Part shown: positions 731 to 34,156 of the stretch, in pieces | How positions within the stretch are numbered: position 1 is the stretch's first letter | Layout of the letters: each line of letters begins with the position of its first letter | Origin: Bacteroidales bacterium | GTDB taxonomy: Bacteria; Bacteroidota; Bacteroidia; Bacteroidales; UBA932 | Direction: 5' to 3' | NCBI GenBank assembly: GCA_015060225.1 | Contig: SUYX01000014.1 | Location: 1 to 50,218 of the forward strand | Length of the DNA: 50,218 bases | Translations under genes and position numbers: made by a program | The notes under the pieces: generated by a model | Seen by the model: the letters and a program-made list of their open reading frames with translations, nothing else | Databases searched by the model: none | What the model was told of the DNA's origin: nothing

Positions 731-1663
731 TTATCTTAATTCTGCTCCCTTCTTCACCCTAAGGGAATCCCTCACCTTCTGTTCATATTTCTTAATTACA
801 CTTGGTGTAAGGGTGGCATTGCGTACAAACTCCTGTGTTCTTTCATCAAACTTCGCCCTTGCAGTTGCCAGGCACCACGCCACTGCCATATCCACATAAT
901 AATCCCCTTTGCGCACCTTCTCCATCTGGACCAACACCCTCCCTATGTACTCCTCCGTAAGGAAATACGACATTAACATAACCACTCCGAACCTGATTTC
1001 AAACTCCATGCTGCCCTGGGGATTCGCGCCGCTACATTTCCGCTGAAGATTTTTGCCAGCACTTTCACCCTGGAGGTGACACTCCCGCATATCTGGGAAC
1101 AGATACCTCTGCAGGAACTCCCACATCTGCTCCAGCGGAACCTTATTGCACGACTTTGGTCCCCTGCCGGGCTCACCCACCCATTTTGCCCCTCCACAGA
1201 AGACATCACACACCGCCCAGTTATCTATAAGGGGAACAAACTGCTCCACAAGGGAGAGTCTCCTTACTGGCTCCACATTTATAAGGTCTATCACCATACC
1301 AATAATCATCACCTCCTCAAAAAAGATGGTGCTGCAGAGTTCTGCCCTCTGCAGCTGCCTCTCCCGCTGTTTCTCAAATTTTGCGGTCTTCACTACGGAT
1401 GCGGATGCAGATGTGGCTTCAGATGCGGCTTCGGATGCGGCTCCATTTTCAGCATCAGTTCCTGGACCTCCCACGCAAAAACCATATTCCATCAGGAAAT
1501 CCTCCCAATCACCACCGGCAATCTCCCTGGCAATGCTCCGCATCCTGGGAACCTTAACCCCCAACATCACATTCCTGTTTGTAAGGACAAACTTCTGGTT
1601 AAAAATCCTGTATTGTTCCTCCGCCTCCCCCTTTAGGCGGGCAATCAAATTATCCCTTCCCAT
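731..1663 (-). CDS. DNA alkylation repair protein, AlkD-like HEAT-repeat glycosylase
   Basis: A 310-residue member of the AlkD-like family (COG4912), HEAT-repeat DNA glycosylases that excise bulky or positively charged alkylated bases. Recognisable parts are the N-terminal helices with VKVPRMRSIAREI (about residues 37-49), the central LIDNWAVCDVF (about 146-156), which contains the conserved Trp and the family's catalytic-type Asp, and the C-terminal VDMAVAWCLATA (about 258-269). The usual length is about 220-240 residues. The excess comes from an Ala/Ser/Glu-rich insert at about 66-105, coded by short repeats of a GGATGCGGCTTC-like unit, and from a less conserved stretch at about 160-220. 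The start codon overlaps the end of the upstream methyltransferase gene by 19 bp, which implies translational coupling. The function is well supported; whether the inserts matter is unknown. Confidence 0.88.
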   Translation of the reverse strand: MGRDNLIARLKGEAEEQYRIFNQKFVLTNRNVMLGVKVPRMRSIAREIAGGDWEDFLMEYGFCVGGPGTDAENGAASEAASEATSASASVVKTAKFEKQRERQLQRAELCSTIFFEEVMIIGMVIDLINVEPVRRLSLVEQFVPLIDNWAVCDVFCGGAKWVGEPGRGPKSCNKVPLEQMWEFLQRYLFPDMRECHLQGESAGKNLQRKCSGANPQGSMEFEIRFGVVMLMSYFLTEEYIGRVLVQMEKVRKGDYYVDMAVAWCLATARAKFDERTQEFVRNATLTPSVIKKYEQKVRDSLRVKKGAELR

Positions 1664-11445: not shown

Positions 11446-11850
11446 GATGTCACAAATTCCCTTGTTTCCATGACATCCCCCCCCTTCCCGACAATCATTT
11501 GTCACAAATTCGGGCCATCCTATGACAAATGCCCCCTCAGCTCTGCCATTTGTCACATTTCCGGGTCATCCCATGACATCTGACCCCTCAGCACTGCCAT
11601 TTGTCACAAATTCGGGCCATCCCATGACATCTGACCCCTCAGCCCGCCATTTGTCACATTTCCGGGCCATCCCATGACAAATACCCCCTCAGCGCCACCG
11701 TTTGTCACAAATTCGGGCCATCCCATGACAAATACCCCTTCTGCGCCGTCATTTGTCACATTTCCGGGCTACCCCATGACATCTGACCCCTCAGCCCGCC
11801 ATTTGTCACAAATTCGGGCCATCCCATGACATCTGACCTTTCGGGATGCC
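11446..11850. repeat. 51-bp tandem repeat array A with inverted TTGTCA/TGACAA pairs
   Basis: Seven good units start at 11497, 11548, 11599, 11649, 11700, 11751 and 11801 (period 51, twice 50), preceded by one degraded unit from 11446. Each begins (a/g)TTTGTCAC and has an 18-nt centre before TGACA(AAT or TCT), then a CCCCTCAGC-type spacer. Where the second half is TGACAAAT the arms are eight-base perfect inverted repeats. The centre alternates strictly between CAAATTCGGGC and CATTTCCGGGC types. The array fills the gap between sufS and sufE. Arrays B and C around the transposase at 27-28 kb share the period and layout but not the spacer sequence. Confidence 0.93.
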
Positions 11851-26824: not shown

Positions 26825-27020
26825 ATGTCATGATAACCACACAATCTGTGACAAATGCCTCCCCACACTCCTCGGTTGTCACAGAAATCCATCTCCCCGT
26901 GACAAATACCCCATCAAGCACCCAGGTTGTCACAAAAATCCAACTCCCCATGACAAATCACCCTCCCCGCACCGCAGTTGTCACAAAAATCAAACTCCCC
27001 GTGACAATTGCGCCTGCCTC
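26825..27020. repeat. 51-bp repeat array B (3' side of the RAYT-like gene)
   Basis: Four units start at 26825, 26876, 26927 and 26978, exactly 51 bp apart. Each holds TTGTCAC, a 16-nt A-rich to C-rich centre and GTGACAA (one copy ATGACAA; the first unit is degraded), then a 21-nt C-rich spacer. Two further partial TGGTCACC copies lie just before (26787-26815). The array ends 9 bp beyond the stop codon of the transposase gene. Its spacers differ from those of array A but resemble those of array C (CAAGCACCCAG in both). Confidence 0.92.
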
Positions 27021-27028
27021 CTTGGACT

Positions 27029-27940
27029 TTATCGTCGGGAAGGGGGAAATAATGAATTAAGGATATCTGTATCCAATCTTAAAAGCCGCCTGATCTGCTG
27101 ATTATTGGCGTTATATTTAAAATGCAGGATTTTTGCCACCACCAGTTTTCCATCCTTATCAAGCTGCAGGGGTTTCTGCTTGAATTTTTCCATTGAAATG
27201 GAATACATTACCGAAGATAACTCCTCATCTGTATATACAATCTTATCGGCCTGTTCTTTTGCTATATCGGAAAAACTTTCCACCAGTCTGGAAACCAGAG
27301 AGTAATAATGGTGTGCATTATTGAACAAACTCTCAACATCTGATATGGCTATATATGAGAGTGGAGAAACATATTGGCCTATCAGAAAGAAGCATGGAGG
27401 AAATGTGTTAAAATGTGAATGGAACATCCTCCTTTTCTCATTTACCGGTACCTGCTGCAGACTGAACTGCAACTGGCTTTCATATTCCTGCAGCATAGAA
27501 AAGAAATATCTGTTGGATCCCCATGGATATGAAAATGGGGTATAATTGCTATCTATCAGATACCCGTTCCTGTTTACATACGCAATGACATTCCTCAAGT
27601 ATACCAAATCAGTTATTTTAATCAACTTATATGAAAATCCTTTCATGTCGGAAAACCGCCCCTCAAATACAAGGAACTTTTTCAGACGCCTGTACAACTC
27701 TGAATAAAAAAGCAGAACCTCATCCTTATCCCCATAAATAATAAAATGAAAATGATTGCTCATAATCTGAAATGTGTAAATCTTCAACCTATCCCAAAAA
27801 ATTGCAGCAAGCAATCCAACCATATTCATTCCAAACACATAATCTGATCTTTTTCTGAATAGTACTCCCGACAACTCTCCAGGTGTACACAAATGCCAGA
27901 AACAGCCCTCCCTTGAAATTAAATCTCTCATAAATGACAT
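27029..27940 (-). CDS. REP-associated tyrosine transposase-like protein (Y1/HUH family)
   Basis: A 303-residue protein with the Y1 transposase (IS200/RAYT) fold. FWHLCTPGELSGVLFRKRSDYVF (split at about residue 25) fits the first strands, the HUH motif is MSNHFHFIIYG (His63 and His65), the likely catalytic tyrosine is Tyr121 in IAYVNRNGYLID, and SYPWGSNRYFF (137-147) equals the DYPWSSYR motif typical of RAYTs. The C-terminal half (about 150-303) is charged and helical, longer than in usual 150-200-residue RAYTs, and may bind DNA. The gene sits between arrays B and C of the 51-bp palindromic repeats, the arrangement expected for a RAYT and its REP sequences. There are no IS ends; alternatively it is a degenerate IS200-like element. 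Confidence 0.82.
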   Translation of the reverse strand: MSFMRDLISREGCFWHLCTPGELSGVLFRKRSDYVFGMNMVGLLAAIFWDRLKIYTFQIMSNHFHFIIYGDKDEVLLFYSELYRRLKKFLVFEGRFSDMKGFSYKLIKITDLVYLRNVIAYVNRNGYLIDSNYTPFSYPWGSNRYFFSMLQEYESQLQFSLQQVPVNEKRRMFHSHFNTFPPCFFLIGQYVSPLSYIAISDVESLFNNAHHYYSLVSRLVESFSDIAKEQADKIVYTDEELSSVMYSISMEKFKQKPLQLDKDGKLVVAKILHFKYNANNQQIRRLLRLDTDILNSLFPPSRR

Positions 27941-28046
27941 TTTTATTGCGCAATACTACCAACATTATTGCACAACAGTCGTCAAAAAAAGAAATTTCCT
28001 TGCCAAAAAAAGAAAATGTTTCCACACCCTATCTTAAAAAAGCAAT

Positions 28047-28240
28047 TTGGCGTCACAGAAACCTCCCTCCGCATGACAAATACCCCTCAGCACACCTAAG
28101 TTGTCATGGAATCACCGCAATCCGTGACAAATCAACCTCTGCGCACCCCCAGTTGTCACGGAAACCTATCTCCGCGTGACAAATACCCCTCCAAGCACCC
28201 AGCTTGTCACGGAAAACCCACTCCCCGTGACAAACGACGG
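28047..28240. repeat. 51-bp repeat array C (5' side of the RAYT-like gene)
   Basis: Four units, with GTCA cores at 28052, 28103, 28155 and 28206 (spacing 51, 52, 51). The last two read TTGTCACGGAAA...GTGACAA with 7-bp perfect arms and a 16-nt centre; the spacer is again C-rich (AAATACCCCTCCAAGCACCC). The array begins about 100 bp upstream of the transposase start codon and ends shortly before the frdB terminator. Confidence 0.92.
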
Positions 28241-28260
28241 AGGGTGATTGTGGGCAACAA

Positions 28261-28288
28261 AAAAACCGGACCATCTGGCCCGGTTTTT
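28261..28288 (-). terminator. Terminator after frdB
   Basis: AAAAACCGG and CCGGTTTTT form a 9-bp stem around a 10-nt loop just past the frdB stop; A and T tracts on both sides allow bidirectional use. Confidence 0.8.
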
Positions 28289-28313
28289 ATTGGATAGGGG
28301 AGTCCCCTTTTTC

Positions 28314-33430: not shown

Positions 33431-34156
33431 ATGATGTTTTTAAAAAAAATTGCACATAAAACAAATTATCATGTAAATCCCTCTTACAGCAATCTCAATG
33501 CTTTTATGAGGGATTTGCCCGATAATTATGAAAAATTGGGCAAAATCATCTATAAGGGAAGAAATGAGTTGAGGGAGATTGAATATGAAGGAGTACAGAT
33601 GGTTATAAAGAGTTTCAGAATTCCCAACTTCATCAATAGGATTGCATATGGAATATTCCGTTCTTCCAAAGCCAGACGTTCTTATGAATATGCCCGTATT
33701 TTAATGGAAAAGAATATTGGAACTCCAACTCCTATAGGGTACTATACCAGCAGGAAATGGTTCCTTTTTTATAAAAGCTGGTATGTTTGCGCAAAATCAG
33801 AATGCCCCAATACATATAAAGACCTTATAGACGGCAATTTTCCAAATACTGAAAAAATAGTAAAATCAATTGCTGCCCTTACAGCATACATGCATAAAAA
33901 TAACATGTTGCATAAAGACTGGTCGAGAGGAAATATACTTTTCAATGATACTCCCGATGGTGTTGAACTGGAAATTATAGATCTTAACCGTATAAGGTTC
34001 CACAAGATTGGTATGGAAGAGGGTTGCAGGAATTTTGAACGTCTCCCTGGAACGGACAGGATGACAAGATGGATGGCAGAAGAATATGCATCAATAATGG
34101 GATACAACGCAGAAGAGTGCTTTAAAATAATGAATTCCTGCAAAGAGAAATGCTAA
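33431..34156 (+). CDS. Kdo/LPS kinase-like protein (WaaP/InaA type)
   Basis: A 241-residue protein kinase-like fold enzyme related to lipopolysaccharide core or Kdo kinases. The catalytic loop is LHKDWSRGNILF (about 156-167), with the base Asp and metal-binding Asn, and the magnesium-binding motif is IIDLNRIRF (about 177-185). The N-terminal lobe has EIEYEGVQMVIKSFR with the ATP-binding lysine. Its ATG directly follows the stop of the hexosaminidase gene, with a second ATG next to it, so it should be translationally coupled. It probably phosphorylates a sugar of the lipid A-core region at the cytoplasmic membrane; the substrate is inferred from the family only. Confidence 0.85.
   Translation: MMFLKKIAHKTNYHVNPSYSNLNAFMRDLPDNYEKLGKIIYKGRNELREIEYEGVQMVIKSFRIPNFINRIAYGIFRSSKARRSYEYARILMEKNIGTPTPIGYYTSRKWFLFYKSWYVCAKSECPNTYKDLIDGNFPNTEKIVKSIAALTAYMHKNNMLHKDWSRGNILFNDTPDGVELEIIDLNRIRFHKIGMEEGCRNFERLPGTDRMTRWMAEEYASIMGYNAEECFKIMNSCKEKC

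Follow-up and report, generated by a model that had tools for sequence, protein, structure and literature searches.

A RAYT-like HUH/Y1 nuclease gene between 51-bp palindromic arrays, and its relatives with arrays of their own, in a family of Bacteroidales

What kind of system consists of a single-strand DNA nuclease-like gene set between tandem arrays of evenly spaced palindromes? The question is raised by a 50,218-nucleotide stretch of a Bacteroidales genome (lineage UBA932; assembly GCA_015060225.1, contig SUYX01000014.1), called here, at its full length, the window, which encodes a 303-residue protein of the HUH/Y1 type between two arrays with a pitch of about 51 bp. The sequence-only reading of this DNA had proposed a Bacteroidota system of a repetitive extragenic palindrome (REP)-associated tyrosine transposase (RAYT) with its own repeat class. 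The working principle of that proposal stands, given the predicted fold, the repeats linked to protein lineage and the units found elsewhere in the genome, whereas its scope was too narrow, as the genome carries four close paralogues, the window gene among them, with different arrays of period 51–52. The window probably holds one locus of a RAYT/REP-like system that has diversified within a single family of Bacteroidales, with every HUH/Y1 protein recognising a palindrome of its own.

The gene, its protein and the flanking arrays

The gene and its immediate surroundings are laid out as follows:
26826 to 27006, no strand: array of four palindromic units (28–30 bp) at a 51-bp pitch, on the gene's downstream side
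27029 to 27940, minus strand: HUH/Y1 single-strand DNA nuclease-like gene, 303 residues, an open reading frame with the motifs
27578 to 27580, minus strand: codon of Tyr121, the putative catalytic residue
27746 to 27757, minus strand: codons of the HuH motif, residues 62–65
28051 to 28232, no strand: array of four palindromic units at a 51/52-bp pitch, on the gene's upstream side, oriented like the downstream array

The units beside the gene have the consensus TTGTCAC-16-GTGACAA, with slight variation. Under the pattern TGTCAY-16-RTGACA, they start at 26826, 26877, 26928 and 26979 in the downstream array and at 28051 (one mismatch), 28102, 28154 and 28205 in the upstream array, with steps between centres of 51, 51, 51 and 51, 52, 51, respectively. 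With at most one mismatch, the pattern occurs 16 times in the whole window against 0.45 expected, a number reached in none of 100 shuffles. Compared with each other, the two flanks score 128 in direct and 22 in inverted orientation, and the units are direct repeats; the gene with its motifs, the flanking arrays and their tandem rather than paired arrangement were all as first described. The arrays (window 26830–27060 and 28106–28297) are open in some frames, 51 being divisible by 3, and give rise to spurious open reading frames.

The protein carries N62-H63-F64-H65, Y121 and YPWGS, and in a 50-sequence alignment of the protein family positions M60, N62, H63, H65, Y121 and N125 are invariant, so that the HuH motif and single catalytic tyrosine of RAYT/TnpA-REP class 2 are present. 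Its tyrosine motif is Y-V-N-R-N-G (YVNRNG), neither Y---NP nor Y---Q, and NP at this place is found in some distant relatives (L031, L020, L043). The closest solved structure to the predicted fold is the E. coli RAYT, in agreement with a TnpA-REP fold, and the model resembles RAYT more than IS200 transposases. In sequence searches, the curated RAYT model NF047646 matches 8 of the 50 family members at E ≤ 0.01 (best 4.3e-7), the window protein not being among them; this protein alone has no match in Pfam and NCBIfam at E ≤ 1, a single match in PHROGs (E 0.05) and six weak matches in the PDB (best 0.054). The long C-terminal half, initially regarded as unusual to this protein, is common to the whole family; its end portion is predicted to be helical, with a weak likeness to known helix-turn-helix (HTH)-type domains and to DnaA, and the half modelled alone reaches a mean predicted local distance difference test (pLDDT) score of 76.4, with a weak best Foldseek E of 0.79.

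Repeat classes, their dispersal and their pitch

Known RAYTs had been described in the sequence-only reading as single-copy domesticated genes. The genome of the window (2.15 Mb, 64 contigs, 86% complete), however, contains three close paralogues, 47–49% identical to the window protein, on contigs C20, C28 and C41, hence four close members with the window gene, and two distant ones on C31 and C40. Each close paralogue has tandem arrays of differing sequence on both sides, with a period of 51 (C20, C28) or 52/104 (C41), and the distant ones (L020, L021) have 51-bp-period arrays close to both. The palindromes of the C28 class are clear at the pitch (GGGAAC..GTTCCC, many six-base arms at 51 bp), and those of the C41 class are weaker (TCCAC arms at 52 and 104 bp). 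At the C20 paralogue (L017, C20:58930–61050), no six-base palindromes repeat at 51 bp despite long two-sided arrays with a clear 51-bp period, and the notion that all four close paralogues have palindromic arrays was dropped; either the palindrome has decayed there or this member uses a different signal. L017 is also one of three loci, with L026 and L045, at which a family member stands beside what we take to be a clpB-like gene in three genomes, with differing repeats of period 51 or 102 bp; the repeats may have been replaced at one site, if the three sites are orthologous.

The arrays are not confined to the gene. Copies remote from any family gene were sought for the window, C28 and C41 classes out of the four in this genome, and in three other genomes for a single class apiece; the window itself holds two such places:
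11448 to 11831, no strand: gene-less array of eight units of the window palindrome class, pitch 50–52 bp
2176 to 2288, no strand: short gene-less 51-bp array with one GGGAAC..GTTCCC palindrome (2209–2237), of the C28-paralogue class

The first accounts for 8 of the 16 window matches, with steps of 50 to 52, and a genome search for the window unit found three more on C20 near 33,440–33,570. The C28 class, with 26 and 20 matches per strand against 6 and 3 for the reversed control, has copies on C3, C25, C27 (the window contig), C39 (two places) and C40, besides lone palindromes at C26 and C28:33546 that may be due to chance. Of six C28-class places inspected by pattern, four have exact 51-bp steps (both C39 places, C3 and C25) and two a single palindrome (C40 and C28:33546), although Tandem Repeats Finder (TRF) gives a 51-bp period at C40. 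Copies of the C41 class lie on C20 (two places), C41 (two places), C6, C8 and C54, the last of which is the longest array seen (L147, C54:11300–13700; some 25 units of 52 bp, plus roughly five adjoining ones). One C20 array is a mosaic of three window-class units followed by four C41-class units (L142, C20:33000–34400), with steps, from the listed coordinates, of 51, 51, 53, 52, 51 and 52. None of these gene-less places is within 4 kb of a family gene. Near the 2.2-kb array, further tandem repeats of 12, 27 and 9 bp occur at window 1398–1442, 1746–1899 and 2297–2369.

In the genomes of L073, L070 and L130, one module or array served as query and family genes were mapped by profile search at E ≤ 1e-5. 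The first has more module copies on its C9, C3 and C7 (70–83% identical over 79–81 of 86 bp), the second on C30 and C29 plus one about 2.3 kb from the query copy, and the third at about ten further places on C17, C13, C18, C9 and C29. None of the 12, 10 and 6 family matches tallied, respectively, is at a gene-less copy, the smallest distances being about 2.1 kb (the C3 copy of L073) and about 2.6–2.8 kb (one copy each in L070 and L130). The flanking palindromes are thus also found elsewhere in the genome, as is characteristic of RAYT/TnpA-REP class 2.

The family is one of gut and rumen bacteria, whose genes of this kind often lie between palindromic repeats of their own. Among 61 genomes (the window's own, 36 of the same genus and 24 from other families within the order), matches at E ≤ 0.001 occur in 22, all within the genus, and among 295 genomes across the order two match at 1e-20, namely the window's genome and one of three others sampled from its family. 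A scan of a species-genome collection gave 154 confirmed stretches, the best 80 of which were kept (L052–L131); the record names of these 80 are Bacteroidales, Bacteroidia, Bacteroidaceae, Rikenellaceae, Cryptobacteroides, Cacconaster or Egerieousia, and their animal source, where named, is always a herbivore.

The pitch was tested by looking for two palindromes with the same six-base arm (at most one mismatch) within the 450 bp adjoining each gene, with 499 stretches 1.6–3.55 kb away at the same loci as controls. Same-arm pairs 50–53 bp apart are present in 76 of 158 flanks against 4 of 499 control stretches, with counts of 10 at 50 bp, 51 at 51 and 21 at 52, compared to 1 at 49 and 0 at 53. 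Of the 80 loci, 55 have a partner at this pitch in one flank or both, 21 of them in both. Even among distant relatives (L030–L041, about 23–28% identical), 6 of 12 have a period of 51 or 52 (L030, L031, L032, L034, L036, L037). Arms and linkers vary between loci and the pitch holds at 50–52; the average of the classes shows an inner theme, CACAAAA..TTTTGTG, around a G+C centre, and a profile of 78 flanks reveals no strongly conserved base or tetranucleotide outside the arms, hence no GT[AG]G foot. The minimal form is two palindromes in a module of about 85 bp, the two sides being near-identical in L067, L069 and L073. In 8 of the 80 loci (L062, L066, L071, L072, L076, L086, L089, L127), a conserved leader, approximately CCAnnGCCAyGGwGGCGTTGG, lies about 100–160 bp upstream of the match, its core being found 8 times in total in them; it may serve as an RNA leader or as a fixed site of cleavage or control.

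That the flanking repeat changes with the protein lineage, as the sequence-only reading had suggested checking in relatives, is borne out by two comparisons. In 46 of 79 loci, the upstream and downstream flanks of the gene match each other beyond the threshold (40 mainly in direct, 6 mainly in inverted orientation), and in 33 weakly, whereas 400 draws of flanks from different loci gave 0 such matches in direct and 1 in inverted orientation. In pairs, not independent of one another, drawn from the 58 of 84 loci with usable arms, an arm is shared by 6 of 6 at protein identities of at least 80%, 12 of 28 at 70–80%, 3 of 75 at 60–70%, 2 of 146 at 50–60%, 34 of 1362 at 30–50% and 0 of 36 at 20–30%. 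This steep fall implies that the target switches within about a quarter of sequence change, and switches are seen between proteins still about 75% identical; L060 and L066, for instance, at about 74%, have different arms. Repeats that vary by gene at a constant spacing of about 51 suggest that the enzymes and their target repeats evolve together, the distance between units being measured. As to the residues concerned, positions 161–180 stand out for arm specificity in loosely matched pairs (16 same-arm, 53 different-arm), and in identity-matched pairs (15 and 16) the top 15-residue windows are at about 86–111 and 164–184 (centred maximum 0.18, attained in 12 of 2000 shuffles); the pairs are non-independent, and these candidate positions are a lead only.

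Gene and arrays also come or go together at the window site, between sdhB and dmpA, where the block edge is marked by one further feature:
28261 to 28288, no strand: terminator-like hairpin past the neighbouring sdhB gene, an inverted repeat taken for a terminator by eye

The sdhB site was inspected in 30 genomes of the genus. One close relative, G024, has the same element in the same place, with a protein 86% identical. In six (L150, L151, L152, L153, L165, L178), dmpA stands tail to tail with sdhB across a gap of about 85–215 bp with neither gene nor array; in the remaining 23, dmpA is more distant, differently arranged or outside the stretch seen. By TRF, the 29 sdhB stretches other than that of G024 contain no tandem array exceeding 55 bp. 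In L157 and L159, what looks by eye like a resolvase reading frame comes after sdhB and dmpA lies about 0.8 kb downstream, and the gap thus receives different inserts in different species.

A proposed mechanism and its competitors

By analogy with RAYTs and their REPs, the protein would cut its palindromes as single strands. Wherever DNA is exposed, it would bind the single-stranded palindrome folded into a hairpin, use Tyr121 to cleave each unit at one fixed position and re-join the ends, whereby whole units could be added, removed or copied to other sites. If a dimer spanned two adjacent units, the step would be set at about 51 nt whatever the palindrome sequence, and the helical tail of the protein may recognise these same half-sites when the DNA is duplex.

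Co-variation of protein and palindrome, gene-less dispersal, joint presence or absence at the window site and the predicted fold are the parts that the data show; cutting, binding, movement and the ruler are inferred. Several observations weigh against this view. The C20 arrays, periodic without clear palindromes, indicate that a palindrome may not be needed everywhere, and confidence is slightly reduced on this account. Under the strict test, 25 of 80 loci have no pitch partner in either flank (some, L054, L057, L109 and L118, are still periodic at 50 or 51 bp by TRF), and some flanks have other periods (187, 112/113 and 37/42 bp). The folding energies of two window-class hairpins are modest (−5 and −7 kcal/mol), and the empty sdhB–dmpA sites are too diverged to give an exact insertion junction. 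An unbiased pairing test fails to separate hairpins from duplex half-sites: pairing beside the arms is 0.34 inside and 0.52 outside within a unit, and 0.36 and 0.54 between neighbouring units, so that hairpin use is not favoured over duplex half-sites. Compensatory change was also considered as proof of hairpins (968 of 1898 left-arm changes are compensated), but this count is biased because units were picked for perfect arms, and it is not used as support.

The pairing result is compatible with the main competitor, in which the arrays are duplex sites for gene control, chromosome organisation or an iteron-like origin, the C-terminal helical part binding alternating half-sites on one helix face and the HUH domain acting only occasionally. 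The geometry also suits it, as half-sites recur every 22 and 29–30 bp in three classes and 51 bp is near five helical turns; we nevertheless regard it as unlikely. Less probable still is that the arrays are ordinary satellite DNA made by replication slippage, with the gene an old passenger and the pitch inherited from an ancestral unit. The array at 11.5 kb differs in length at a syntenic site in two related genomes (8 units in the window, about 3 in G024), as expected from slippage, and the inner theme common to the classes on average fits common descent of the unit; yet arms and linkers differ between loci at a constant pitch, both flanks of a gene share a class that changes with the protein, and such arrays are rare in control stretches. 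An ordinary IS200/IS605 insertion sequence whose ends fell by chance in repeats, raised beforehand as a possible outcome, would account for presence and absence at the sdhB–dmpA site and for same-orientation palindromes at both ends, an arrangement that IS608 has, but is refuted on present evidence, since the other copies in this genome (86% complete as assembled) are at most 49% identical rather than near-identical, Y---Q is lacking, the predicted fold is closer to RAYT and arrays exist without any gene.

Returning to the RAYT/REP-like reading, dozens of enzyme–repeat pairs, several per genome, differ in target and not in spacing, so that swapping segments and units offers a direct test of how targets are recognised, how the spacing arose and whether modules move. 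It is tempting to speculate, tentatively, that bacterial satellite DNA is here produced and dispersed by a family of HUH nucleases with an internal ruler, combining a changeable palindrome with a constant step of about 51 nt in dozens of mutually exclusive enzyme–repeat pairs, several per genome, radiated in one bacterial family.

Comparison with known systems

RAYT classes have been described together with their REPs (Quentin et al. 2018, PMC6006769), and how RAYTs make and spread REP-like repeats is poorly understood (Corneloup et al. 2021, PMC8266576). The present system shares with RAYT/TnpA-REP and REP/REPIN the HUH/Y1 fold (here predicted), palindromes of its own at the flanks, gene-less copies and a protein-specific palindrome class. 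It differs in that its repeats are not inverted REP pairs but tandem units in direct orientation at a distance of about 51 bp, lack the GT[AG]G foot and form several different arrays per genome, and in that the protein, at 303 residues with a helical tail, has YVNRNG in place of Y---NP, a RAYT/TnpA-REP class 2 feature (PMC6006769). Strict membership in the described RAYT groups therefore fails. A REPIN comprises two inverted REPs, whereas the window units, and the flanks in 40 loci against 6, repeat directly.

Long as well are the subclass 2.1 TnpAY1 and TIRYT proteins, whose C-terminal extension is HTH- or DnaA_C-like and here appears weakly DnaA-like. Quentin et al. (PMC6006769) found no REP-like repeats for subclasses 2.1 and 2.3, and TIRYT genes carry terminal inverted repeats (Di Nocera et al., PMC3733652), unlike the mostly direct tandem palindromes seen here. 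Subclass 2.6 (Bertels group 5), from the same phylum, is similar in its atypical flanking structures without GTAG and its copies elsewhere in the genome; its proteins have a median of 179 residues and a YIH[QN]NP motif, against 303 and YVNRNG here, and the accessible text of PMC6006769 mentions no periodic arrays for it. With IS200/IS605 TnpA (IS608, ISDra2), the system shares the HUH/Y1 core, without Y---Q or near-identical copies and with a weaker structural match. No earlier report of such arrays was found in the open-licence literature, judged on titles and abstract openings. The family unites a long protein, repeats without the GTAG foot, a tyrosine motif without NP in the close members and a constant tandem pitch.
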